Source of the DNA: Tissierellia bacterium | Lineage (GTDB): Bacteria; Bacillota; Clostridia; Tissierellales; Tepidimicrobiaceae | Length of the DNA: 64,000 bases | Direction: 5' to 3' | Assembly (NCBI GenBank): GCA_012839745.1 | Contig: DUMS01000081.1 | Coordinates: 1-64,000 of the forward strand | In this document: positions 12,243 through 51,321 of the stretch, in pieces | Layout: the number at the start of each line of letters is the position of its first letter | Numbering within the stretch: the first letter of the stretch is position 1 | Made by a program: the position numbers and the translations under genes | The notes under the pieces: generated by a model | The model's database searches: none | Seen by the model: the letters and a program-made list of their open reading frames with translations, nothing else | Told to the model about the DNA's origin: nothing

Positions 12243-12346
12243 GGAATACGTTATCAAAGAAAGGAGGGCATGTAATTTTTTGAAGGCATTATATAGAGAT
12301 TTGATCAACATTCATTATTCATTAGAATAATAAGGAGGATTTGTTA

Positions 12347-13369
12347 ATGAAGAAAAGCAATTTGTTTCCTATTTTAGTATTGGTTATCGTTCTTTTGACT
12401 TCAGGTATTTTTTATAAGGAGTATTACAACAAAACTCATCCTACTTCATCAGGTCCAATAGTTATCAGACTATCACATGTTGCCAATGAAACATCACCTA
12501 TTCATCTATCCTGCGTTTATTTTGAAGAGATATTAGAAGAAAGGTCCAATGGTCAATTTGATGTACAAGTTTATCCCAACAGTCAATTAGGCGGAGACAG
12601 GCAAGCTGTAGAAGCTGTCAGTATCGGTTCAATAACAGCCACTTTCCCTGGTACTGCAGTATTGGCAGGATTTGAACCAAAGTTTATGGTTGGTGACTTG
12701 CCTTTTATATTTAAAACTCGTGAATCTGCATATCAGGCACTTGATAATGAGCTAGGTACTGAATTGAATAAACTTCTCGAAAAACACAATCTAGTGAATT
12801 TGGGATTTGGGGAAACAGGATACAGGCATATTACAAACAATGTAAGACCTATTACCAGCCCAGAAGATTTAAAGGGGATTTCTATAAGAACCATGGAAAA
12901 TCCAATCCATATGGCTTCCTTTAGGGCTTGGGGAGCAAATCCAACACCAATAAGTTTCTCAGAACTATTTACAGCGCTACAGCAGAATACTATAGATGCT
13001 CAGGAAAATCCACTCCAGATTATCAGCTCTTCAAGATTTTATGAAGTGCAGAAATATCTATCCCTAACAGGACATTTCTTTGCATCAGGCAGTGTTTTAA
13101 TCAATAAAGAGTTTATGGACAATCTACCTGAAGACCTAAGGGATTTGGTGTATGAATGCGGTAGAGATATGGTAGAGTATGAAAGAAAACTTACTCAGGA
13201 AATGGAATCCCAATTCCTTGAAGAACTTAAGGCTAATGGAATGGAGGTAAATGAATTAACACCAGAGCAAAAGGATAAGTTCATTCAAATGGCACAGTCT
13301 GTTTATGAACAGTATAAGGATATGTTGGGAGAAGACCTGATTAAATTAGCAATGAAATATAATGATTAA
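12347..13369 (+). CDS. TRAP transporter substrate-binding protein DctP family
   Basis: IRLSHVANETSPIHLSCVYFEEILEERSNGQFDVQVYPNSQLGGDRQAVEAVSIGS; ATG 12347 with AAGGAGG upstream. Confidence 0.9.
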   Translation: MKKSNLFPILVLVIVLLTSGIFYKEYYNKTHPTSSGPIVIRLSHVANETSPIHLSCVYFEEILEERSNGQFDVQVYPNSQLGGDRQAVEAVSIGSITATFPGTAVLAGFEPKFMVGDLPFIFKTRESAYQALDNELGTELNKLLEKHNLVNLGFGETGYRHITNNVRPITSPEDLKGISIRTMENPIHMASFRAWGANPTPISFSELFTALQQNTIDAQENPLQIISSSRFYEVQKYLSLTGHFFASGSVLINKEFMDNLPEDLRDLVYECGRDMVEYERKLTQEMESQFLEELKANGMEVNELTPEQKDKFIQMAQSVYEQYKDMLGEDLIKLAMKYND

Positions 13370-13386
13370 ACTGGGAGGGGAAACTA

Positions 13387-13884
13387 TTGAAAATACTAAA
13401 ATGGTTGGATAAGAACTTTGAAACCTATTTTTTAATTACAACTCTAGTTGTAATGGTATTTATAGTTACATTGCAGGTAGTCTTAAGATCCTTCTTTAAG
13501 TATTCTCTCACATGGGCAGAAGAGTTTACAAGATATGTCATGTTATACCAGATTTGGGTAGGTGCATCTATAGCAGTTAAAGAGGATGCTCATTTGAGGA
13601 TTACCTCCTTCAGAGATAGCCTGTCACAAAAAGGGCAAGCTATAGTTGAACTGATTGTAATAGTATTATGGACTGTGTTTGCTGTATTTTTAGCTATTAA
13701 ATCAGGACAATTAGTTAATATACTGTTTACAAGAGGACAGCTATCTGCCGCCATGAGATTACCAATGGGATATGCCTATGCTTCTGTTACAGTAGGTTGT
13801 GCATTAATGGCAATAAGGCTAATTCAAAAATTATATAAACTGGTTAGAAAATTTGAGAATAAAGAATTAGAGATAAAAAATTAG
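13387..13884 (+). CDS. TRAP transporter small permease (DctQ family)
   Basis: 4-TM, SLTWAEEFTRYVMLYQIWVGASIAVKEDAHLRI; TTG start with GGGAGGGG RBS. Confidence 0.88.
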   Translation: MKILKWLDKNFETYFLITTLVVMVFIVTLQVVLRSFFKYSLTWAEEFTRYVMLYQIWVGASIAVKEDAHLRITSFRDSLSQKGQAIVELIVIVLWTVFAVFLAIKSGQLVNILFTRGQLSAAMRLPMGYAYASVTVGCALMAIRLIQKLYKLVRKFENKELEIKN

Positions 13885-13904
13885 AGAATCTGGAGGGTTA
13901 ATAT

Positions 13905-15170
13905 ATGATAATACTTTTGTTTGTATTACTGGCCATATTTGTTACGCTTAGTATACCAATTGGAATAGCTTTAGGGCTGGCAACATTGATTACAGTTTTG
14001 TTTGCTACCAACATTAATCCACTTATGATTGCTCAAACAGCCTTTACAGCGTTGGATTCATTTACTCTGATGGCAATTCCATTTTTTATACTTGCAGGCA
14101 ATTTTATGAGATATGGCGGAATATCAAAGAGATTGCTGAATTTAGCTGATAAATTAATAGGATTCGTGACAGGCGGCCTTGGAATGGTAACTACATTAAC
14201 CAGTATGTTCTTTGCAGCAATTTCAGGCTCTGGACCAGCTACAGTATCCTCCATTGGTTCCTTTATGATTCCTGCCATGGAAGAAAAAGGCTATGACAAG
14301 GGATATGCTGCAGCACTTACCTCTGCTGCTGGAACAATAGGTGTAATCATACCACCATCAATACCTTTTGTAGTATATGGTGTTGTTACCAGCACATCAA
14401 TTGGGGACCTATTTATTGCTGGTATAATTCCAGGTATAATAATGGGATTGGCTATAATGATATTAAACTATTATATTGCTAAGAAAAAAGGGTGGACTGG
14501 CAGCGGTGAAAGACCTGATTTTAAAGGTGTTTTAAAAGCATTTATAGATGCTTTCTTTGCATTATTAAGTCCAGCCATCATACTTGGAGGTATATACAGC
14601 GGTATATTTACTCCAACGGAAGCAGCAGCAATTTCATGTGTCTATACTTGGATTATCGGTACTTTTGTGTACAAGGAAATTCATAAAAAGGAACTTTTTG
14701 ATTGCTTGAAAGATACTGTAGTAATAGCTGGTGCAACTTCCTTTATGATAGGATTATCCTCAGGTTTCGGTACATTGCTTACTATGGAACAGGTTCCTGT
14801 TAAAGTTGCAAATGCACTACTTGGTTTCTCAAATAGTAAAATTGTAATTCTGTTATTGATAAACCTTTTCCTATTAATAGTTGGTATGTTTATCGACAAT
14901 ATTTCAAGCTGTACAATATTGGCACCAATATTCTTACCAGTTGTAAAGGCATTAGGTGTAAACCCGGTTCACTTTGGAATCTTCATGACAATAAACCTGG
15001 CAATAGGATTTATTACTCCTCCATATGGTGCTAACCTGTTCATAGGTTCTGCAGTTGGAAGAGTTTCTATGGATAGAATAATCAGATATATTTGGCCATT
15101 AATTGGTGTTTTGGTTTCTGTATTGCTATTAGTAACATATATACCACAGCTGTCATTGATGTTATTATAA
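13905..15170 (+). CDS. TRAP transporter large permease (DctM family)
   Basis: SGSGPATVSSIGSFMIPAMEEKGYDKGYAAALTSAAGTIGVIIPPSIPFVVYGV. Confidence 0.92.
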   Translation: MIILLFVLLAIFVTLSIPIGIALGLATLITVLFATNINPLMIAQTAFTALDSFTLMAIPFFILAGNFMRYGGISKRLLNLADKLIGFVTGGLGMVTTLTSMFFAAISGSGPATVSSIGSFMIPAMEEKGYDKGYAAALTSAAGTIGVIIPPSIPFVVYGVVTSTSIGDLFIAGIIPGIIMGLAIMILNYYIAKKKGWTGSGERPDFKGVLKAFIDAFFALLSPAIILGGIYSGIFTPTEAAAISCVYTWIIGTFVYKEIHKKELFDCLKDTVVIAGATSFMIGLSSGFGTLLTMEQVPVKVANALLGFSNSKIVILLLINLFLLIVGMFIDNISSCTILAPIFLPVVKALGVNPVHFGIFMTINLAIGFITPPYGANLFIGSAVGRVSMDRIIRYIWPLIGVLVSVLLLVTYIPQLSLMLL

Positions 15171-15194
15171 GAATCAGATTGAGGAGGAAAAATT

Positions 15195-16364
15195 ATGAAA
15201 TCTTGTAATAAACGTTTAGAAGCCATGCCCTTTGGCGGACTATATGAAATATTTACAAAGGCTAATAAACTGGAGGCTCAAGGTAAAAGAATAATACATA
15301 TGGAAATTGGAAGACCAGATTATGATTCGCCTGATTTTGCAAAGGAAGCCGTAAAAGAAGCCTTAGACCGTGGACAAGTTCATTATACAGATGTAAACGG
15401 TATTGAACCTTTGAGAAAAGCCATTTGCAATAAGGAAAAAAGGCGTTTTGGTTTGGAATATGATTATGAGACAGAAATAAGCGTTATGAGTGGAGCAGCT
15501 GAGGCAATAGGGGTTATAATGCTGACTATGATGAATCCCGGAGAGGAGATAATTGTTCCAAGTCCTTTCTTTTCAGCATATAGGGAGCAGGCACTAATTG
15601 CAGGAGTTAAGCTGGTAGAAGTGCCAGTAAGGATGGAAGACAACTGGCAATTAAATGTTGAAGAAATAGAGAAGAGAATAACTCCAAATACTACAATGCT
15701 TCTTATAAATACTCCTAATAACCCTGCAGGATACGTATTGGACAGGGATAACCTGGAGAAAATTGCAGATCTGGCTAAGGAAAGAGATTTAATAGTAATA
15801 TCTGATGAATGCTATGATGAGTTTATATATGGTGAGGAGCATGTTTCCATTTCAACCTTAGATGATATGAGGGAGAGAACATTAGTAGTCAAATCAACTT
15901 CTAAGCAGTTTTCGATGACTGGATGGAGAATTGGGTATGTACTAGGGCCAGCAAATGCTATAAAATATATTAATAAGGTTCATCAGAATTTCTCCACTTG
16001 CGCTACAGCCTTTGCTCAATGGGGAGCAGTAGAAGCTTTCAATAATGGTGATAGTTTTATAGAAGATATGGTTAAAGAATTTAAGAGAAGGGGAGACTAT
16101 CTATATGAGGCTTTCACCAAAATAGATGGTTTAAAAATAGTCAAGCCAAAGGGAGCATTCTATGCATTTCCAGATATAACAGCCTTTGGGATGGATGAAA
16201 GGGAATTCTGCAATTACCTTATGGAAGAGGCTGGAGTAGTTGGAGTTCCAGGCACTTCCTTTGGAGAATATGGAAAAGGACATATAAGGCTTGCTTATTG
16301 CTGCTCCTATGAGGATGTAGTTGAAGCATGTGAGAAGATTAAGATTGCCTTAGGAAAACTATAA
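15195..16364 (+). CDS. PLP-dependent class I/II aminotransferase
   Basis: NTPNNPAGYV, SDECYDEFIY, STSKQFSMTGWRIGY (PLP lysine). Confidence 0.88.
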   Translation: MKSCNKRLEAMPFGGLYEIFTKANKLEAQGKRIIHMEIGRPDYDSPDFAKEAVKEALDRGQVHYTDVNGIEPLRKAICNKEKRRFGLEYDYETEISVMSGAAEAIGVIMLTMMNPGEEIIVPSPFFSAYREQALIAGVKLVEVPVRMEDNWQLNVEEIEKRITPNTTMLLINTPNNPAGYVLDRDNLEKIADLAKERDLIVISDECYDEFIYGEEHVSISTLDDMRERTLVVKSTSKQFSMTGWRIGYVLGPANAIKYINKVHQNFSTCATAFAQWGAVEAFNNGDSFIEDMVKEFKRRGDYLYEAFTKIDGLKIVKPKGAFYAFPDITAFGMDEREFCNYLMEEAGVVGVPGTSFGEYGKGHIRLAYCCSYEDVVEACEKIKIALGKL

Positions 16365-16385
16365 TATTTAGAAAGAAGGGGTCTT

Positions 16386-18047
16386 ATGAAGTTTGACAAA
16401 GATAATATGAAAAACATAATTGAAGAGAATATATTGAAATATGTAGGTACAAGAACTGATACAAATTCCAAGGAAGAAAGAAATGTTGAGAAATTTTATG
16501 AAGAATGGTTCAACAAGGTAGAGTACTTTAGAAATAATCCTGATAAACGCGGATTGTTTGATATACCTGGTGACTACCTGGACAGGAAGGTTCCATGGTG
16601 CCTATTAAAGGGACAAGGAAACGATACCATAGTTTTCATTCACCATTATGATACTGTAGAAACAAAGGATTATGGATTACTGGAGCCATTATCCCGAAGC
16701 CCCTATGAGCTTATGGAAGCATTTAAGGAAGGCAAAATGGAGCTTTCAGATGAGGCAAAGGAAGATCTATTCAGCGATAAATGGCTATTTGGACGTGGAG
16801 TTAGCGATATGAAGGGCGGAGGCTCAATACAGCTTTCACTAATTGAGGAATACAGCAAAGATCCAAACTTTAAGGGAAACATTGTTTTAATAGCAGTACC
16901 GGATGAAGAAAACCTATCAGCTGGAATGAGGGGAGCTTGTGTCCTTTTGAAATCCCTCAAGGAGAAATATGGTCTTGAATTTAAGCTAATGCTTAATTCA
17001 GAGCCTCATGAAAGGGAAAAAGACTTGCGCCCAACCATATATGACGGCTCCATAGGTAAAATCATGCCTGTATTCTATGTACGCGGGAAGCTGGCTCATG
17101 TAGGACAGGTGTATTCAGGATTAAATCCAATTAATCTGCTGTCAGAAATAATCAGAAGGACTGAATTAAATCCTAACTTCATAGAGAAGGTAGGAACAAC
17201 AACAAATCCGGCACCTACCTGGCTGTACCACAAGGACAGGAAGATGGTATATGATGTATCATTGCCAATTGCCACCTGCGGATATATGAGCATATTGCCT
17301 TTAGCCAGGTCACCAAGATCCATTATGGAAGAGCTTAAGGAAATCTCCATAGAATCATTTAAAAAGGTAATAGACGATATGAATAGACACTATAAAGCAT
17401 ATACCGAAATTGCAGGAATAGAATTTGAGCCATTGCCATGGGAGCCTAAAGTTAAGTTCTACTCTGAATTGTATAATGAAGCAGTTGCTGATTCAGGAGA
17501 GGAATTCAAAAAGGCCTTTAAGGATTTGATGGATGAAATAAAAGAGAGATTTAACAGAAATGAAGTTACAATTATAGAATCAGCAAACATGATTATTGAA
17601 AAAACCCTTGAATATATAAAGGATAAATCACCAATGGTAATAATTGCTTTAACACCTCCATATTATCCAAGTACGAATAATCTAATGCTAGGTGAGAGGG
17701 CAAAGGAGATTGAGGCAGTAATTGAGGATATTAAATCCTATGCAAAAAATAATTTCAATGAAGACTATAAGGTTGAAAACTACTTTACTGGAATATCTGA
17801 TTTAAGCTATGCCATGCTGGTTTCAAGCAAGGATGATATTGATTATATAGAAGAAAACATGCTTATGTGGGGAGATATATACTATATTCCATTGGAAATT
17901 ATAAAGGAAATATCCATGCCTGTGTTAAACGTAGGGCCATGGGGGAAAGACCTACATAAGTATACAGAGAGAGTAAACAAGGATGACTTGTTCTACAGGA
18001 CACCACAATTATTGGATTTAGTTATAACTAAATTGCTGGACAAATAG
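16386..18047 (+). CDS. M20-family peptidase/amidohydrolase, RocB-like
   Basis: VFIHHYDTVE, GRGVSDMKGG, AVPDEENLSAGMRG metallopeptidase-type motifs; length and layout like RocB proteins. Confidence 0.75.
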   Translation: MKFDKDNMKNIIEENILKYVGTRTDTNSKEERNVEKFYEEWFNKVEYFRNNPDKRGLFDIPGDYLDRKVPWCLLKGQGNDTIVFIHHYDTVETKDYGLLEPLSRSPYELMEAFKEGKMELSDEAKEDLFSDKWLFGRGVSDMKGGGSIQLSLIEEYSKDPNFKGNIVLIAVPDEENLSAGMRGACVLLKSLKEKYGLEFKLMLNSEPHEREKDLRPTIYDGSIGKIMPVFYVRGKLAHVGQVYSGLNPINLLSEIIRRTELNPNFIEKVGTTTNPAPTWLYHKDRKMVYDVSLPIATCGYMSILPLARSPRSIMEELKEISIESFKKVIDDMNRHYKAYTEIAGIEFEPLPWEPKVKFYSELYNEAVADSGEEFKKAFKDLMDEIKERFNRNEVTIIESANMIIEKTLEYIKDKSPMVIIALTPPYYPSTNNLMLGERAKEIEAVIEDIKSYAKNNFNEDYKVENYFTGISDLSYAMLVSSKDDIDYIEENMLMWGDIYYIPLEIIKEISMPVLNVGPWGKDLHKYTERVNKDDLFYRTPQLLDLVITKLLDK

Positions 18048-40572: not shown

Positions 40573-40992
40573 GAGATCTATCCTCCTGATAAGCAATATA
40601 TTTAAATATTAGATATTATATTACAAAATTATGAAATATTCAAACTTTTGAAGCGGTGATATACTATTAACAAAGATATTATAAAAGAGGAATATATAAT
40701 AATTTTTAATAAAATTAAAGGTTATTACTTATTTACGTATGCAGCTTGAGATTAAATATACTATAATTCCATATAAAATATTATAAGCTATATATACAAT
40801 CAATTTTAATTCTCATTCTAAATTAAAGAAGGGAAAAGGTTTAAATAAAGCTTTAAGGAATTTTGACATATTAATTAAATGCTAGAATTCTTGCTGAGTA
40901 GAAATTGTAAAAGCTTACAAATATTCATGTATAATTGATTTTAAATAGCTACAAACATGATGATTAATTATCATATCAAGGAGGTTGTAAAA

Positions 40993-41889
40993 GTGGCATA
41001 TTTTAAGATTAAAGGAGTTATACCACCAATGATTACACCTTTCGATGAAAGGGGTGAAGTGGATTATGAAAAACATGTGAAGAACATGGAAAAATGGAAT
41101 GAATATGATTTAGCAGGATATTTAGCACTAGGTTCTAATAGTGAAACTCCATACTTAACTGAAGAAGAAAAACTTAAATTAGTGGAGCTAACAGTAAAAC
41201 ATAAAAAAGAAGGTAGGGTAGTATTAGCAGGTACGGGTTTAGAATCAACAAAAGCCACTATAGAATTAACTAACAAAGCAGCAGAACTTGGTGCAGATGC
41301 AGCTTTAATATTAACCCCATCATACTATTCAAGCAAAATGAATGACGAAGCATTAATAAATTACTTTACTGAAGTTGCAGATAATGTAAAAATACCAGTA
41401 ATGATTTATAATGTCACAAAGTTTACCCACATTAATATATCACCTTATGCAGTTGGAGTATTAAGTAAGCACCCAAATATTATTGGAATGAAAGATAGCT
41501 CAGGAAGTATACCTCAATTAGTTGAGTATAAGAGTGTTATAGGTGAAAGTAAATTTAACTTATTGGTTGGAACAGCATCTGCTTGGTATCCAGCATTAAC
41601 AATTGGAATAGATGGAGCTATTATGGCATTAGCAAATTGTTGCCCACAAGAATGTATAGAAGTGCAAGAGTATTATGAAAAAGGGGACTGGGAAAAATCC
41701 AGAGAAATATATGAAAGAATGTATCCTGTCAACAAAGCAGTTACAGGCACTTATGGAATTGCAGGCTTAAAATATGCATGTAGTCTGTTAGGATTTGAAG
41801 GTGGATATGTAAGAAAGCCATTGTTAGAGCTTAAAGAGGAAGATAAGACTAAACTTAGAGAAATATTATCAAAAGCACAGGCGTTATAA
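40993..41889 (+). CDS. DapA-family (DHDPS/NAL) aldolase/dehydratase
   Basis: GVIPPMITPFDERGEVDYEKHV, YLALGSNSETPYLTEEEKLKLVE, IYNVTKFTHINISP, NIIGMKDSSGS (Schiff-base Lys); GTG 40993 after AAGGAGG. Confidence 0.85.
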   Translation: MAYFKIKGVIPPMITPFDERGEVDYEKHVKNMEKWNEYDLAGYLALGSNSETPYLTEEEKLKLVELTVKHKKEGRVVLAGTGLESTKATIELTNKAAELGADAALILTPSYYSSKMNDEALINYFTEVADNVKIPVMIYNVTKFTHINISPYAVGVLSKHPNIIGMKDSSGSIPQLVEYKSVIGESKFNLLVGTASAWYPALTIGIDGAIMALANCCPQECIEVQEYYEKGDWEKSREIYERMYPVNKAVTGTYGIAGLKYACSLLGFEGGYVRKPLLELKEEDKTKLREILSKAQAL

Positions 41890-42007: not shown

Positions 42008-42359
42008 ATCATTGGAACAATTGATTTTAATATTTTTTTCAAAGCAAAAAAGGTTTTTTATCATAAATGTCGAATAATTAAGTTACATCAAAGTCGTTCT
42101 ATAGGAGTAAACCACTTAATATGTATACTTATCATCCAACTCTTATTTCCTTTCATGAAATTTTATATTTTGAACCAATTTGTGCTTTTATTAGTACTAG
42201 AACAAATTGATATATTCATACATGTTAATGTATATTAAGGAAAAAGTGTACTTCCAAAGAACTAAAAGGATATAGTAAAATAACCTCATTGAAAGATTAA
42301 TTTTGTTATTTACTTGACTAGTGTTGTTAATTGACATAATTATTACAGGGAGGAGAATT

Positions 42360-44255
42360 ATGCAGAATATTGATGATTATTATAATATCCTGTTTATTTC
42401 TACATATGAAGAAATGGCGAAGAGAGCTGAACTAGTTAGTAAAGATTTAGGGATTGAAGTTGACATAATAAGAGGCTTAAATCTATCTAATAGTGTACAA
42501 GCTGTTAGAAAAAGGATACAAAACAGAGTGGTAGATGCAATTATTACTAGAGGTGGTACTGCTTTAAAGATGAAGGAAGAATTTAATATTCCTGTTATAG
42601 AGATAGAAGTGACAATCCTCGATATATTAAAAGCCATAGGAAAAGTTAAAAAACATGTTAAGAGGATTGGGGTTATTGGGTTTCCAAACATAATAGGTAA
42701 TATATCATCATTATCTGAATTTCTTGATATTGAAATAATTGAAATTCAAATAAATAGTATACAAGAAAGTACTGAAGCAGTGAGAAAAGCATCTCAATTA
42801 CAAGTAGATGCGATTGTTGGTGATAGGATTGCAGTGGAAACTGCTGCTGAGTTTGGCATCTATGGCGAACTTATTGTGACGGATTCGTATGAATGTATTG
42901 CCAAATCATTTTATAAAGCTATAGAGATTGCAAATATGAGAAAAAACCAGCTGGCTAAAGCTGAAGAGTTAAGGTTAATAACAGAACTTACTCAAAGTGG
43001 AATAATAGCTATTGATAAGGATGGAATGATTACCCTATTTAACGCTAAAGCAGGGAGAATTTTAAATATAAAACCTGAACTAGCTCTTAATGAACCTGTT
43101 GATAAAATAATTCCAGGTTTTAATTTAACAAGAACTCTTGTAAGAAAGCAAAATGAATTTGATGAAATTGTTAATGTAAATGATAAATATATTGTTCTTC
43201 ATAAAGCTCCCATTTTAATAAACGAAGTTGCATTAGGCGCTGTAGCAACTTTCGACAATTTGGAACAGATACAGTTAATTGAAAAGAAAGCTAGGAAGAA
43301 ATTAAGCGAAAAAGGGCATGTTGCTAAGTTTACTTTTGATTCAATTTTAGGTAATAGTAAAATTATGAAAGATATAAAAGAAAGAGCCAAAAAATATAGT
43401 TTAGTTGATTCAGCTATTTTAATTCATGGTGAAACAGGAACTGGTAAGGAAGTTTTTGCACAGAGCATACACAATCATAGCCTAAGACGGAATGGGCCTT
43501 TTGTTGCAGTAAATTGTGCGGCCCTTCCATATTCATTATTGGAATCAGAGCTTTTTGGATATGTAAAAGGTGCATTTACTGGCGCTAAAGAAGAAGGGAA
43601 AGCAGGTTTGTTTGAACAGGCTCATAAAGGAACTATTTTTTTGGATGAAATCGCTGAAATACCGTTAGATGTACAAGCTAGACTACTAAGAGTATTACAG
43701 GAAGGACAGGTGCAAAGAATAGGTGACGATAGGATTATAAATATAGATATTAGGATTATAAGTGCTACAAATAAAAACTTAGCTGATCTAATTAAATTAA
43801 ACAAATTTAGAGAGGATTTATATTACAGACTAAATGTATTAAATATAAACTTACCGAGCCTTAGGGAAAGGATAGAGGATATACCTATTTTCATAGATCA
43901 TTTCATAACCTTAAAATCTAAAGAGCACAAGAAAATAATAACCAAAGTTGACGATATTGTTATATTAAAACTCTCAACTTATTCTTGGCCAGGTAATGTA
44001 AGACAATTAGAAAATATAGTTGAAAGATTAGTTGTAGAGAGTAGTAATGGGGTAATTTCAATAAATGACTTAAATAATGTATTGGGAGATGAGGTAACGG
44101 AAAATATGAGTGTATTAAATATAGATGAAATTACTAAAAAAACTATTGAAACAGCACTTAAGTTATCAAACAACAACAAAACTTTGGCTGCTAAAACACT
44201 AGGAATTGATAGAACTACACTATGGAGGATGATGAAAAGATATAATATGAGCTAG
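42360..44255 (+). CDS. Sigma-54-dependent activator with PrpR-type N-terminal domain, PAS, AAA+ and Fis HTH
   Basis: GFPNIIGNISSL sensor domain, HGETGTGKEVFAQSIH Walker A, GAFTGAKEEGKAGLFEQA, C-terminal HTH LAAKTLGIDRTTLWRMMKRY; ATG 42360 after GGGAGGAG. Confidence 0.92.
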   Translation: MQNIDDYYNILFISTYEEMAKRAELVSKDLGIEVDIIRGLNLSNSVQAVRKRIQNRVVDAIITRGGTALKMKEEFNIPVIEIEVTILDILKAIGKVKKHVKRIGVIGFPNIIGNISSLSEFLDIEIIEIQINSIQESTEAVRKASQLQVDAIVGDRIAVETAAEFGIYGELIVTDSYECIAKSFYKAIEIANMRKNQLAKAEELRLITELTQSGIIAIDKDGMITLFNAKAGRILNIKPELALNEPVDKIIPGFNLTRTLVRKQNEFDEIVNVNDKYIVLHKAPILINEVALGAVATFDNLEQIQLIEKKARKKLSEKGHVAKFTFDSILGNSKIMKDIKERAKKYSLVDSAILIHGETGTGKEVFAQSIHNHSLRRNGPFVAVNCAALPYSLLESELFGYVKGAFTGAKEEGKAGLFEQAHKGTIFLDEIAEIPLDVQARLLRVLQEGQVQRIGDDRIINIDIRIISATNKNLADLIKLNKFREDLYYRLNVLNINLPSLRERIEDIPIFIDHFITLKSKEHKKIITKVDDIVILKLSTYSWPGNVRQLENIVERLVVESSNGVISINDLNNVLGDEVTENMSVLNIDEITKKTIETALKLSNNNKTLAAKTLGIDRTTLWRMMKRYNMS

Positions 44256-44276: not shown

Positions 44277-44345
44277 GTTGCAAAATGCAACGTTAAAGAT
44301 TTGCTAATATAAGCAAATCTTTATTTTTATGCTGCAAATAGCAAC
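44277..44345 (+). promoter_or_regulatory. Paired upstream activator sites for the PrpR-like activator
   Basis: GTTGCAAAATGCAAC (44277-44291, perfect palindrome arms GTTGCA/TGCAAC) and GCTGCAAATAGCAAC (44331-44345), centres about 54 bp apart. Confidence 0.6.
44293..44327 (+). terminator. Terminator after prpR-like gene
   Basis: AAAGATTTGCT aatata AGCAAATCTTTATTTTT. Confidence 0.7.
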
Positions 44346-44396
44346 ACAAAATAGAGAGAAAATTAAGAAAATACTGTATTAGTCTAAATTCTATAT

Positions 44397-44413
44397 TTGG
44401 CATAATAATTGCA
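44397..44413 (+). promoter_or_regulatory. Sigma-54 (-24/-12) promoter of the tct/dehydratase operon
   Basis: TTGGCATAATAATTGCA: GG and GC separated by exactly 10 nt, 64 nt before the tctC start. Confidence 0.82.
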
Positions 44414-44476: not shown

Positions 44477-45031
44477 GTGATTAAAAGAAACCATTTGCTT
44501 AGTTTAGTTAGTTTCATCATGGTTTTATCAGTTGTATTATCAGGTTGTAGTAGCAAAGAAACTGGAAGTGATATTAATTATCCAGAGAAGCCCATTACTG
44601 TATTACAAGGGTTCAAACCTGGCGGGGGTAGCGATACTTTAGCTCAACTAACACAACCTTATTTAGAAAAAATTCTAGGGCAAACATTTGTTAATCAATA
44701 TATACCAGGTGCTACTGGAGCAATTGCTTGGACAGAACTTTGCAAAAAAACTAAGAATGATGGATATACGCTTAGTATCACAAATACTCCTATGCTTATG
44801 ACAAACTATATTATGAATGAGGAAATAACATATACTATAGAAGAATTAGATCCAATTGCTAATGTTGTTACTGATCCAGGTGTGATAGTTGTAGGTAAAG
44901 ATAGTAAATATGAAACCATTCACGATTTTTTGGAAGATGCAAAAGCTAATCCAGGGCAGGTTACTGTTGGAAATTCTGGAGTAGGCGGAGATGATTTCTT
45001 TACAACTTTGTATGATACAAGTGTATGTTAG
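44477..45031 (+). pseudogene. Truncated TctC-type solute-binding lipoprotein (C-terminal part missing)
   Basis: Lipobox VVLSGCSS; PEKPITVLQGFKPGGGSDTLAQLTQPYLEKILGQTFV...GNSGVGGDDFFTTLYDTSVC*; about 184 aa against roughly 320-330 aa in the family. Confidence 0.78.
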
Positions 45032-45350
45032 TGAAACGAAAATTGCTAAAGCAAATAGAATTCAAAATAAAGAACCAGGGGAAGAAAAAGATGACAGCGA
45101 AGAAAAATTTGAGCCTATAAATTATAGACAGGCAATAATATTTACTATTATGATTGCAGCTTACATATTCCTTCTGGAACCCATAGGATATTTTATAATA
45201 ACTCCAATTTACATAGTTTCTACTTATATTTTTCTAAATGCAACAAAAGTAAGAAATATAGTCTTTATATCAATAGGATTCACGGCATTTGTATACTTTT
45301 TGTTTGTTGTATTTTTGAAATTACCAATTCCTATGGGGTTATTGCAATAA
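45021..45350 (+). pseudogene. C-terminal remnant of TctB-type small permease
   Basis: FEPINYRQAIIFTIMIAAYIFLLEPIGYFIITPIYIVSTYIFLNATKVRNIVFISIGFTAFVYFLFVVFLKLPIPMGLLQ; N-terminal TM region absent; overlaps truncated tctC in another frame. Confidence 0.72.
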
Positions 45351-45362
45351 GGAGGGTAAAAG

Positions 45363-46880
45363 ATGATATTTGAAAATTTATTACTGGGTTTAAAAAATGT
45401 AATGTCAATTTCAAGTCTTTTGTCAGTCATTATTGGAACAGCCTTAGGATTATTTGTAGGAGCCATGCCTGGATTGTCAGCAACAATGGCTATTGCTCTT
45501 TTATTGCCAATTACTTTTGGAATGAATCCTGCTACTGGTATCAGTATGTTAGCTTCTCTATACATGGGAGCTATGTATGGAGGCTCAATAGCTGCTATAC
45601 TAATAAAAACTCCAGGTACACCTGCAGCAGCAGCAACAGTAATGGATGGATATCCATTAATGCAGCAAGGGAAAGCTGGAAAGGCTCTTGGAGTTTCATT
45701 AGTTGCATCTTTAATAGGCGGAGTTTTGTCTAGTATAGCTTTATTGACTATTGCGCCTGCTTTAGGAAACTTAGCACTTCAATTTGGACCTGTAGAGCTC
45801 TTTGCTGTTGCTGTATTAGGAATCACTATAATTGGATCATTATCTCAAGGATCCACACTATTAGGACTTTTATCGGGTGCTATTGGTCTATTATTAGCTT
45901 TAGTGGGAATGGATCCTATAACCGGTACTCCAAGGTTTACATTTGGATCAATTTATTTATTCTCAGGAGTTCCTTATACAGTAGCATTAATTGGACTTTT
46001 TTCTATACCACAAGCTATTAAACTAATTCAGAGAGATGAAGAGGAAAAAAAGACAATAAGTAAATTTACAGATAGAATGTTGCCAACATTGCAAGAATTA
46101 AAATTAATGATTCCAAATACTATTAGGTCGTCTATTATAGGTATCGTAACAGGTATTATACCAGGAACTGGTGGAGATACTGCTTGCTGGTTTGCTTATA
46201 ATGAAGCAAAAAGATTTTCAAAGGATAAGGATAAATTCGGAAAAGGCAGCATAGAAGGCCTATCAGCTGCTGAATCAGCAAATAATGCTGTGGTTGGTGG
46301 AGCTTTAATACCTACTCTTACTTTAGGAATTCCAGGCAGTTCTGCAACAGCTATAATTATGGGTGGGCTTATGGTACACGGAATTATGTCTGGTCCTACA
46401 CTTATGACAGAGTATGCAGATGTTACATATACATTAATATGGGCTTTGATGATTAGCAACATTGCAATGTTCGCATTGGGGCTTTTATTTACTAGATTAG
46501 CAATAAACGTAACAAAAATAAGTGATAAAGTGCTGGCACCTATAATAATTGTTCTATGTGTAATAGGTTCCTTTGCTATAAATAATAGTATATTTGATGT
46601 TTACCTAATGTTTGCATTTGGAATCTTAGGATATTTTATGAACAAGATAAATATGCCTACAGCACCTATGGTAGTTGGGATGATTTTAGGACAGATGTTG
46701 GATACAAGTTTACATCAATCTTTGCTAATAGGCCAAGACAGTTGGGCAGTGTTCATTAAGAATCCTATTTCAGCAGCATTATTGTTTATTGCTTTAGTTT
46801 CAATATTGCAGTCAACACCTTTGTTTTCAATAATTAAGAGAAAGATAAAGTCTAAAAAAAGCGATGAAGCTTTAGGCTAA
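45363..46880 (+). CDS. Tripartite tricarboxylate transporter large permease (TctA family)
   Basis: GAMPGLSATMAIALLLPITFGMNPATGISMLASLYMGAMYGGSIAAILIKTPGTPAAAATVMDGYPL. Confidence 0.93.
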   Translation: MIFENLLLGLKNVMSISSLLSVIIGTALGLFVGAMPGLSATMAIALLLPITFGMNPATGISMLASLYMGAMYGGSIAAILIKTPGTPAAAATVMDGYPLMQQGKAGKALGVSLVASLIGGVLSSIALLTIAPALGNLALQFGPVELFAVAVLGITIIGSLSQGSTLLGLLSGAIGLLLALVGMDPITGTPRFTFGSIYLFSGVPYTVALIGLFSIPQAIKLIQRDEEEKKTISKFTDRMLPTLQELKLMIPNTIRSSIIGIVTGIIPGTGGDTACWFAYNEAKRFSKDKDKFGKGSIEGLSAAESANNAVVGGALIPTLTLGIPGSSATAIIMGGLMVHGIMSGPTLMTEYADVTYTLIWALMISNIAMFALGLLFTRLAINVTKISDKVLAPIIIVLCVIGSFAINNSIFDVYLMFAFGILGYFMNKINMPTAPMVVGMILGQMLDTSLHQSLLIGQDSWAVFIKNPISAALLFIALVSILQSTPLFSIIKRKIKSKKSDEALG

Positions 46881-46896: not shown

Positions 46897-48555
46897 ATGG
46901 TGGATCTTAGGAGTAAGAATATGTTAGATGGCCTTTCAGGAGCTTATCCTCGTAGCATATATAAGGCTATGGGGTACGAAGAGAAGGACTTTAAGAAACC
47001 TTTAATTGGTGTGGTTAATTCTTGGACAGAAGCTAATCCAGGACATGCACATCTTAGACAATTAAGTGAATATGTAAAAAGAGGAATTTGGTCTAATGGT
47101 GGAATGCCTGTAGAATTCAACACTATAGCACCATGCGATGGCATAGCACAGGGCAAAGGGATGCATTATATTCTACCTAGTAGAGATATCATATGTGCAT
47201 CTATAGAGTTAATGGTAGAAGCCAATCAATTCGATGGATTAGTAATGCTTTGTTCATGCGATAAGATAGTGCCAGGAATGCTTATGGCAGCTGCTTCTTT
47301 GAATTTGCCTACTATATTTTTGACTGGCGGTCCAATGGAGCCTTATACACACAATGGCGAAGATTTAATTCTAAGTGATGTCAAAGAAGCCATGGGAAGA
47401 TTTAAAGCAGGAATTATTGATGAAAAGGAGTTTAAAACAATTGAAGATCAAACATGCCAAACCTGTGGAGCTTGTGGCATGATGGGCACAGCTAACACTA
47501 TGGGGACTGTTGTAGAAGCTATGGGGTTGTCACTTCCAGGTTGTGGAACAATTAGTGCAGTAGCTTCAGCAAGGCTAAGACTTGCAAAGATGACAGGTGA
47601 AAGAATAGTTGATATGGTAAGGGAAGGCTTAAATTCAAATAAGATAATGACTAAAGATAATATAGAGAATGCCATTAAATACATATTGGCAATTGGTGGA
47701 TCATCAAATGCTATACTACATATACCTGCTATAGCAAAACAGTTAGGCGTGGAATGTAATATTGAGTTATTTGATAAATTGAGTAGAGAAACTCCTTTAT
47801 TAGCAAAATTCAAACCTGCATCGAAATATACATTGAAAGACTTCCATAATGCTGGTGGAGTACAGGCTTTGCTTAAATCATTGTCACCAAAACTTAATCT
47901 TAATGTTTTAACGGTTACAGGTAAGACTATTGGTGAAAACCTAGAAAAAGTAGACTTTATCGAAACTGATGTTATACGTAGCTTAGACAATCCTTTAGCT
48001 TCAGAAGGAGGAATAGCGGTTTTAAAGGGAAATTTAGCTCCTAAAGGAGCAATAGTAAAGCAATCAGGAGTATCAGATAAAATGATGGTTCATAGAGGAC
48101 CTGCTAAAATTGCGAATTCGGAAGAAGAAGTAAGAGAACTATTGCTTAATGGCAGAGTAAAGCATGGCGATGTATTAATAATTAGATATGAAGGCCCTAA
48201 AGGTGGTCCAGGGATGAGAGAATTATCTATTCCTGCAGCCTTATTAGTTGGAATGGGATTAGGCGATTCTGTTGCTATGGTTACTGATGCAAGATATTCA
48301 GGAGCAACTAGGGGCCCATGTATTGGTTATGTAACTCCTGAGGCTGCTGATGGTGGGCCTATAGCCATTGTTGAGGAAGGAGATATTATAAGCATAGATA
48401 TCCCTAATAGATCTATTAATATTGAAATTTCTGATGAAGAAATAAATGATAGATTATCAAAGTGGAAGTACGAACCAAAGAAAGAGTTAAAAGGTTTTTT
48501 GAGAACATATCAAAAGATTGTAAGTGCTGCAAATGAAGGAGCTACTATCTATTAA
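46897..48555 (+). CDS. IlvD/EDD-family dehydratase (dihydroxy-acid or sugar-acid dehydratase)
   Basis: [97 protein letters not shown]. Confidence 0.88.
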
Positions 48556-48569
48556 GGGGGATAGACAAC

Positions 48570-48836
48570 ATGTATAAAAAGATGCTTATAATAAATGAAA
48601 AAGATAATGTTGGAGTTTTACTAGAAGATTGTAAAGCAGGCGAAGTTTGTCGTTATAGGGATATAGATGTAAAGGCTCTAGAAGATATTCAATTTGGCCA
48701 TAAAATAGCATTAAAGGATATGTCTAGTGGAGACATAGTCTATAAATATGGAGAAGAAATAGGATATGCACTAGAGAATATAGCAAAAGGACAGTGGATT
48801 CATAATCATAACATGGGTTGTAGAAGAGGAAAATAG
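48570..48836 (+). CDS. UxaA-family hydrolyase N-terminal SAF domain protein
   Basis: 88 aa, IQFGHKIALKDMSSGDIVYKYGEEIGYALENIAKGQWIHNHNM. Confidence 0.85.
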   Translation: MYKKMLIINEKDNVGVLLEDCKAGEVCRYRDIDVKALEDIQFGHKIALKDMSSGDIVYKYGEEIGYALENIAKGQWIHNHNMGCRRGK

Positions 48837-48848
48837 GGGGCGACAGTT

Positions 48849-50012
48849 ATGCAATTTATGGGTTATAAAAGAAAAAACGGACAAGTCGGAGTTAGAAATT
48901 ATATAGGTATTATTCCTTCTGTATTTTGTGCAAATAGAGTGGCTAAATTAATTGCAGAGCAAGTAGAAGGTGCAGTTTATTTAAATCATCCTGTGGGATG
49001 CAGTCAAGTGGGTGAAGATTTAGAAATTACAGCAAGAACTCTAATTGCCATGGGTAACCATCCTAATATTGCTGCTGTATTAGTGGTTGGGTTAGGATGT
49101 GAAAGATTTACACCAGATGAATTTGTAAGAAGAGTTTCAAAATCTCTTAAACCTGTTGAAAAAGTAGTAATTCAAGAAGAAGGGGATACTTTAAAAGCAA
49201 TTGAAAAAGGTGTGAGAATAGCAAAAAAATGGGCAGCAGAATTTTCGATGCAAGAAAGAGTTCCTTGTGATATAAAAGATTTGATTGTTGGTGTAAAATG
49301 TGGAGGTACCGATGCTACATCTGGAATAGCTGCTAACCCAGCGGTAGGAGTAATGTCAGATTTGGTTGTAGATAATGGAGGTACTGTTTTATTTTCTGAA
49401 GTTACTGAGTTGCTGGGAGCAGAACATATTTTGGCAGATAGAGCAGTCAGCGAAGAAGTAGCTAATGATATTAGAAATACTATTCTAAAAACGGAAGATA
49501 AGCTGAGGGAAATAGGAACAAAAAAAGAGTTTTGTCATAGAGGAGCACTAATATCTACTGGAAATTTTGATGGTGGAGTAAGCTCAGTGGTAGAAAAAGC
49601 CTTAGGTGGAATATATAAATCAGGTACAAGGCCTATTGAAGGTGTGGTAGGGTATGCTGAAAAACCAGAAAAGCTGGGTGGAGTATATTTAATGAATTCC
49701 CCAGGTCATGATGGTGAAGTTGTAACAAGTTTTGTTGGTGGAAGCGCACAAGTTATTGTATTTACTACAGGTAGAGGTACTCCTACAGGATTTCCATTTG
49801 TTCCGGTAATTAAGGTTACTGGTAATTCTTATACATTTGAAAAGATGAATGAGAACATTGATATAAATGCTGGTACTATAATTAGCGAGGGTGAAAGTAT
49901 TGAATCAAAAGGGAAAGAAATATTCAATTTTTTAATTGAAGTTGCTTCAGGTAAAAAGACTAAAGCAGAAATATTAAAGCATGATGAATTGTTCTGTATA
50001 ACTAGGGTTTAG
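48849..50012 (+). CDS. UxaA-family (altronate dehydratase-like) C-terminal subunit
   Basis: GYKRKNGQVGVRNYIGIIPSVFCANRVAKLIAEQVEGAVYLNHPVGCSQVGED; VGVKCGGTDATSGIAANPAVG. Confidence 0.87.
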   Translation: MQFMGYKRKNGQVGVRNYIGIIPSVFCANRVAKLIAEQVEGAVYLNHPVGCSQVGEDLEITARTLIAMGNHPNIAAVLVVGLGCERFTPDEFVRRVSKSLKPVEKVVIQEEGDTLKAIEKGVRIAKKWAAEFSMQERVPCDIKDLIVGVKCGGTDATSGIAANPAVGVMSDLVVDNGGTVLFSEVTELLGAEHILADRAVSEEVANDIRNTILKTEDKLREIGTKKEFCHRGALISTGNFDGGVSSVVEKALGGIYKSGTRPIEGVVGYAEKPEKLGGVYLMNSPGHDGEVVTSFVGGSAQVIVFTTGRGTPTGFPFVPVIKVTGNSYTFEKMNENIDINAGTIISEGESIESKGKEIFNFLIEVASGKKTKAEILKHDELFCITRV

Positions 50013-50052: not shown

Positions 50053-51321
50053 ATGGATATTTTTGAAAAGCTATTAGGAGATGTGCCTATACCAAAATTT
50101 GTAAAGGTTAGACAGAATTTTGAGAGACCTAAAATAGAAAACCTAGAGGAGGAAATAACACAACAACTTAAAAATAAATCATTTTTAAATAAAGTTAATA
50201 AGGGAGATAAAATTGCTATAACTGCTGGTAGTAGGGGTATAGCAAATATAAATAGAGTTATTAAGGAAGTTGTAAGAAATATTAAAGAGGTTGGAGGAGA
50301 ACCTTTTATAGTTCCCGCCATGGGTAGTCACGGCGGTGCTAATGCAGATGGGCAAATTAAAGTTTTATATAGTTTAGGGATAACAGAAGAATTTTGCGGA
50401 GCTCCAATCAGGTCTTCTATGGAGGTAGTAGAATTAGGCAAAACTAAAAATGGATTACCTGTATATATGGATAAGTATGCCAATGAAGCCGATGGTATTG
50501 TAGTAATTAATCGTATTAAACCTCATGTTGGATTTCGTGGACCTTATGAAAGTGGCATAGTGAAGATGATAACCATTGGATTAGGGAAGCAAAAAGGTGC
50601 TGAAGTTTGTCATCAATTAGGATTTGGAAAAATGGCTACAAATTTACCTGAAATAGCTAGTGTAGTTATTGAAAAGAAAAATATCATATTTGCCATGGGA
50701 TTATTAGAAAATGCTTATGATGAAACATATAAAATTGTAACTATGAATAAAGATGAAATTTTAGACTTAGAACCTATGCTACAAGCCGAATCTAAAAGGA
50801 TGACAGCAAAAATTTATTTTGATAAGTTTGATGTTTTAATTGTAGACGAAATAGGAAAGAATATTACGGGAACTGGCATGGATACAAACACTATAGGTAG
50901 ATATCATACTCCTTATGCTACTGGGGGGCCTGAAATTAAAAAAATAGTTGTTCTAGATTTAACTGATGAATCCCATGGTAATGGAAATGGTATTGGGTTG
51001 GCAGATTTTACGACAAGAAGATTTTTCAATAAGATGAAATTTGACCAAACATATCCAAACTCTATTACATCTACTGTTCAAAAGACAATAAAAATTCCTA
51101 TGGTTTTAGACACAGATAAGCTTGCCATACAAGGTGCAATAAAGACTAGTAATTTAGAGGATAAAACTAAAGTTAAAATAGTAAGAATCAAAAATACTTT
51201 AAAATTGGAATATATATTCATTTCGGAAAGCTTAATAGAAGAAGCTAAAGCAAATCCTAATTTAGAAATATTAAGCGAACCAGCAGAATTAAATTTTGAT
51301 ATAAATGGAAATCTTTTTTGA
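50053..51321 (+). CDS. LarA-like (DUF2088, lactate racemase homolog) protein
   Basis: KGDKIAITAGSRGIANINRVIKEVV, FIVPAMGSHGGANADGQ, VVINRIKPHVGFRGPYESGIVKMITIGLGKQKGAEVCH. Confidence 0.78.
   Translation: MDIFEKLLGDVPIPKFVKVRQNFERPKIENLEEEITQQLKNKSFLNKVNKGDKIAITAGSRGIANINRVIKEVVRNIKEVGGEPFIVPAMGSHGGANADGQIKVLYSLGITEEFCGAPIRSSMEVVELGKTKNGLPVYMDKYANEADGIVVINRIKPHVGFRGPYESGIVKMITIGLGKQKGAEVCHQLGFGKMATNLPEIASVVIEKKNIIFAMGLLENAYDETYKIVTMNKDEILDLEPMLQAESKRMTAKIYFDKFDVLIVDEIGKNITGTGMDTNTIGRYHTPYATGGPEIKKIVVLDLTDESHGNGNGIGLADFTTRRFFNKMKFDQTYPNSITSTVQKTIKIPMVLDTDKLAIQGAIKTSNLEDKTKVKIVRIKNTLKLEYIFISESLIEEAKANPNLEILSEPAELNFDINGNLF

Follow-up and report, generated by a model that had tools for sequence, protein, structure and literature searches.

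The tripartite tricarboxylate transporter genes in the window, as the 64,000-nt stretch of contig DUMS01000081.1 (Tissierellia bacterium) analysed here is called, have likely been interrupted by a single recent deletion of about 657 bp, which fused tctC and tctB out of frame, each in mid-gene, within a hydroxy-acid or sugar-acid catabolic cluster that is otherwise intact. The system is a known one (TctCBA, TC 2.A.80), and the locus of Schnuerera/[Clostridium] ultunensis DSM 10521 (G011; locus L017 on NZ_AZSU01000001), a member of the Tepidimicrobiaceae and the closest relative with the cluster, represents its intact ortholog. On sequence grounds, the transporter has very probably been disabled, and recently so, with loss of transport as the expected consequence. 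The truncated genes and the junction were located as follows.

44477..45031, + strand: tctC stump, an ORF of 184 aa with a lipoprotein signal and the N-terminal part of TctC (PF03401 positions 6-116 of 274)
44991-45350, + strand: tctB stump, an ORF of 119 aa (PF07331 positions 49-137 of 137)
45009..45012, + strand: deletion junction, from tblastn and sequence comparison; blastn against S. ultunensis breaks at 45009

The first 178 codons of the tctC stump aligned, at 84% identity, with residues 1-180 of the 334-aa TctC of S. ultunensis; its final six codons (YDTSVC) were tctB sequence read out of frame and followed by a stop. The tctB stump consisted of seven out-of-frame residues, mostly tctC-derived, and the C-terminal 112 residues of TctB, with homology beginning at residue 51 (window position 45012) and matching S. 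ultunensis TctB 51-159. Thus, neither a complete binding protein (about 300 aa in two lobes; 178 codons here versus 334 in S. ultunensis) nor a complete small membrane subunit with four transmembrane segments (residues 1-50 gone) is encoded. TctC relatives of solved structure, found in a PDB search, align along most of its length, and the second half is missing here; TctA gave no match by sequence in PDB. Translation of the tctB stump is conceivable, as its ATG at 44991 is preceded at a distance of 9 bases by a GGAG.

As judged from tblastn and comparison of the sequences, tctC homology stopped at about 45010 and tctB homology started at 45011/45012 in another frame; a whole-gene global DNA alignment, which scattered the gap, was left out in placing the breakpoint. 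By subtraction, the segment absent relative to S. ultunensis corresponded to L017 4000-4656 (657 bp), comprising TctC residues 181-334 and the stop codon, the 43-base intergenic gap, and TctB residues 1-50 (S. ultunensis numbering). The 657 bp are a multiple of three, but because tctC and tctB occupy different frames the join does not preserve the reading frame, and tctC ends after six foreign codons. The initial annotation had described a deletion fusing tctC and tctB in different frames, with TctC breaking off at about 184 aa and roughly 0.6 kb lost; Pfam coverage and the S. ultunensis alignment bear out each of these points, the 184-aa ORF having homology over 178 codons. It had also placed a few tens of bases between the two parts, which has to be corrected, as the parts abut with zero bases between them and the two ORFs overlap at 44991-45031.

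An alternative, which appears unlikely, is that the junction arose in assembly or from a mixture of strains, and that the real or majority genome carries intact tctC and tctB. The genome is a draft, probably metagenome-assembled, of 89 contigs and 86% completeness, and a chimeric join or a minority strain would be compatible with everything in the sequence. However, the junction was clean, without N, and the longest exact word shared by the breakpoint regions, with S. ultunensis as a proxy for the ancestor, was 6 bp; a misassembly by repeat collapse is therefore not favoured, and a repeat-mediated deletion or misassembly was rejected for want of any longer exact direct repeat. Microhomology of 1-3 bp may nevertheless have been present at the breakpoints, S. 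ultunensis being only a proxy for the ancestral sequence. We infer from the assembled sequence that the deletion is present in living cells.

The window and the S. ultunensis locus have in common the gene order sigma-54 regulator, tctC, tctB, tctA, and IlvD/EDD dehydratase, as well as the promoter and activator sites, but tctC (334 aa) and tctB (159 aa) are full length in S. ultunensis, as would be expected of the counterpart of a gene pair recently inactivated by deletion. Around related tctA genes of other genomes, the tctC match ran through the lost region in 26 of the 27 loci; the lost part of tctB was also covered by matches in the loci with the tctB start on the contig, the N-terminus being only partly aligned in some. 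One locus (L033) was uninformative on truncation because its contig begins inside tctB. The same short proteins in relatives, proposed previously as the observation that would speak against a disabling deletion, were looked for in these 27 loci and the truncated form was not seen. A tctC homolog match in a genome of the same order (locus L015, G020) lay in a short open frame (130 aa) that contains an internal TAG and may represent a second degenerate tctC. Among 20 genomes of the family, a close ortholog of the cluster was observed only in S. ultunensis, which indicates that the cluster was patchy to begin with.

The remainder of the cluster comprised the following features.

42321..44255, + strand: PrpR_N/sigma-54-interacting regulator, upstream of the transporter, intact (PF06506, PF00158, PF02954)
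44277..44353, + strand: two TTGCA-n-TGCAA-like inverted repeats, TTGCAAAATGCAA and TGCAAATAGCAA, with position and sequence kept in S. ultunensis
44398..44412, + strand: sigma-54 (-24/-12) promoter-like site TGGCATAATAATTGC, upstream of tctC, intact (pattern match)
45363..46880, + strand: tctA, large permease, intact (505 aa; PF01970 1-422 of 423, E 1.8e-156; 89% identical to that of S. ultunensis)
46897..48555, + strand: IlvD/EDD-family dehydratase, intact (PF00920 and PF24877 full length)
48570..50012, + strand: two-gene galactarate/altronate-dehydratase-like enzyme (SAF and GD_AH subunits), intact (PF08666, PF04295, PF20629)
50053..51321, + strand: nickel-pincer-nucleotide-dependent isomerase, group 22 (LarA homolog), intact (NF052515, 555 bits, cut-off 400)

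Across residues 21-643, the regulator shared 79% identity with its S. ultunensis ortholog, which occupies the corresponding place, and the SAF and GD_AH subunits were 85% and 90% identical, respectively, to their counterparts. On profile coverage, TctA is predicted to be a large permease of the 12-transmembrane TctA family. Every other cluster gene aligned with S. ultunensis over nearly its full length, so that TctA and the rest of the operon are intact as had been stated; no break comparable to that in tctC-tctB was found in the other cluster genes, which argues against an artefact, although an intact cluster would equally be expected if the transporter genes were whole in the cell. The sigma-54 pattern was weak by itself, since 2 matches were found in the window versus 0.69 expected by chance, but TGGCATAATAATTGC was conserved at the same place in the S. 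ultunensis alignment. The inverted repeats TTGCAAAATGCAA and TGCAAATAGCAA are probable activator sites. With the regulator intact, and the sigma-54-like site and the repeats conserved with S. ultunensis, transcription of the operon can probably still be activated.

The cluster also encoded a class-V aminotransferase and a DHDPS-family aldolase or dehydratase, and as a whole likely specifies a catabolic route for a sugar acid or other hydroxy acid; in Halomonas, according to the available text of PMC5812351, a TTT system has been linked to galactarate/glucarate. The group 22 isomerase sits among sugar-acid-type dehydratases, a context that could perhaps hint at its substrate. Two differences in arrangement were observed: the DHDPS-family gene (40957-41889) is upstream of the regulator in the window, whereas S. 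ultunensis has it downstream of the isomerase gene, and the gap between the IlvD/EDD and SAF genes is 14 bases in the window versus about 3.9 kb (partly masked) in S. ultunensis.

Purifying selection was still visible in the remaining tctC and tctB sequence, as in recent pseudogenes. Measured against S. ultunensis, the tctC stump had a dN/dS of 0.046, falling to 0.026 when the signal peptide was excluded, and lay below tctA (0.085); the tctB stump gave 0.164 and the dehydratase 0.045, all rough values with synonymous sites near saturation. None of 71 invariant columns was broken in the tctC stump and one of 18 in the tctB stump. Derived changes, polarised with six outgroups, numbered 6 in the window versus 5 in S. 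ultunensis for the tctC stump and 8 versus 14 for the tctB stump. That the tctB stump is poorly conserved is normal for this fast-evolving subunit, since the outgroups share 38-44% identity with S. ultunensis TctB versus 63-71% with its TctC. For TctA, no sign of relaxed selection was seen in dN/dS or in derived changes, which were about equal in both lineages (14 versus 13).

The undecayed stumps indicate either a very recent event or an assembly or strain-mixture artefact, for genes intact in the cell would likewise be free of decay. A hand calculation, in which the window branch carries about 0.7 synonymous changes per site, a codon has about 2.3 nonsynonymous sites, and 71 invariant codons are unbroken, would date the deletion to roughly the final 3% of that branch; the same pattern would be expected of an assembly artefact. 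On the favoured reading, one deletion of roughly 657 bp would have taken away the latter half of tctC together with the beginning of tctB, leaving the two middles joined out of frame with loss of uptake, and the promoter, regulator, TctA, and enzymes would not yet have had the time to decay. The previous suggestion that the cluster is newly disabled for uptake is thus supported by the intact ortholog, the 26 untruncated loci, and the undecayed stumps.

Whether uptake could be rescued was considered from other copies in the genome. The search for orphan TctC genes, recommended earlier as a check, returned none in the 86%-complete draft, where no other TctC (PF03401) or TctB (PF07331) was found, the missing 14% lying outside the search; a search for the lost tctC and tctB pieces, backed for tctC by a positive control, did not recover them elsewhere in the assembly, and a plasmid search gave distant TctC matches only. 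A search for TctA returned, besides the copy in the window, only a divergent stand-alone TctA-like protein (452 aa, E 2.6e-24) on contig C41 (locus L046), which had neither a recognisable TctB nor a TctC as neighbour and adjoined a 330-aa ORF that resembled by eye a GHMP-family (mevalonate) kinase; being without a TctC partner, it was set aside as a further transporter copy. Uptake by Comamonas TpiBA was reported, on the basis of deletions, to require both the TctA and the TctB homolog (Hosaka 2013 as cited in PMC5812351). Because TctB is cut as well and was essential where tested, supplying only a binding protein from an orphan gene would probably be insufficient to restore uptake; with no other TctC or TctB found in the assembly, such rescue would depend on an unseen TctC and, probably, on a TctB too. 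The idea that a distant binding protein complements the cluster therefore finds no backing in this draft.

The window also contained a second solute uptake cluster (12341-18047), in which a TRAP transporter (DctP, DctQ, DctM) is followed by an aminotransferase and an M20-like peptidase. The TRAP system is complete (12341-15170), with the gene for its binding protein (12341-13369) adjoined by a DctQ and a DctM of its own. A different type of transporter might take over uptake, but nothing ties the TRAP system to the substrate of the cluster.

It is very improbable that the short proteins are stable and functional, with TctA working with the truncated subunits or with a binding protein that belongs to a different transporter. 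The frames of both stumps are open, that of the tctB stump with the GGAG mentioned above, the TRAP binding protein is at hand in the window, and an SBP-independent TctA has been raised as a possibility for rare orphans in the available text of PMC5812351. However, the short forms occurred in no relative, half of TctC and the N-terminus of TctB are gone, the TRAP binding protein adjoins its own membrane subunits, and the Comamonas homologs of TctA and TctB were both essential. Hardly to be expected at all is a minimal TTT transporter for the cluster substrate, in which the truncated TctC and TctB would be expressed and TctA would work with them or alone.

Truncated tctC genes have already been described, and gene loss by short deletion is common. 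As far as the available text of PMC5812351 goes, Rosa et al. 2018 looked at six genomes that have tctA and lack tctC; in four of them, all complete genomes, a truncated tctC was the only one adjoining tctA. The window resembles these four cases, with the difference that tctB was cut by the same event as tctC. The orphan TctC/Bug proteins reported for Bordetella and Rhodoplanes (available text of PMC5812351 and PMC5994714) provide a precedent for the idea of a distant complementing binding protein; unlike there, no second TctC was found in this draft and TctB is damaged too. The deletion is thus an ordinary recent pseudogenisation, another case of the known truncated tctC with a clear junction and an intact ortholog. 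If real, it would show a catabolic cluster caught soon after losing uptake, with enzymes, regulator, and promoter intact and the importer broken, and it would predict that the strain no longer imports the substrate via the TTT system.
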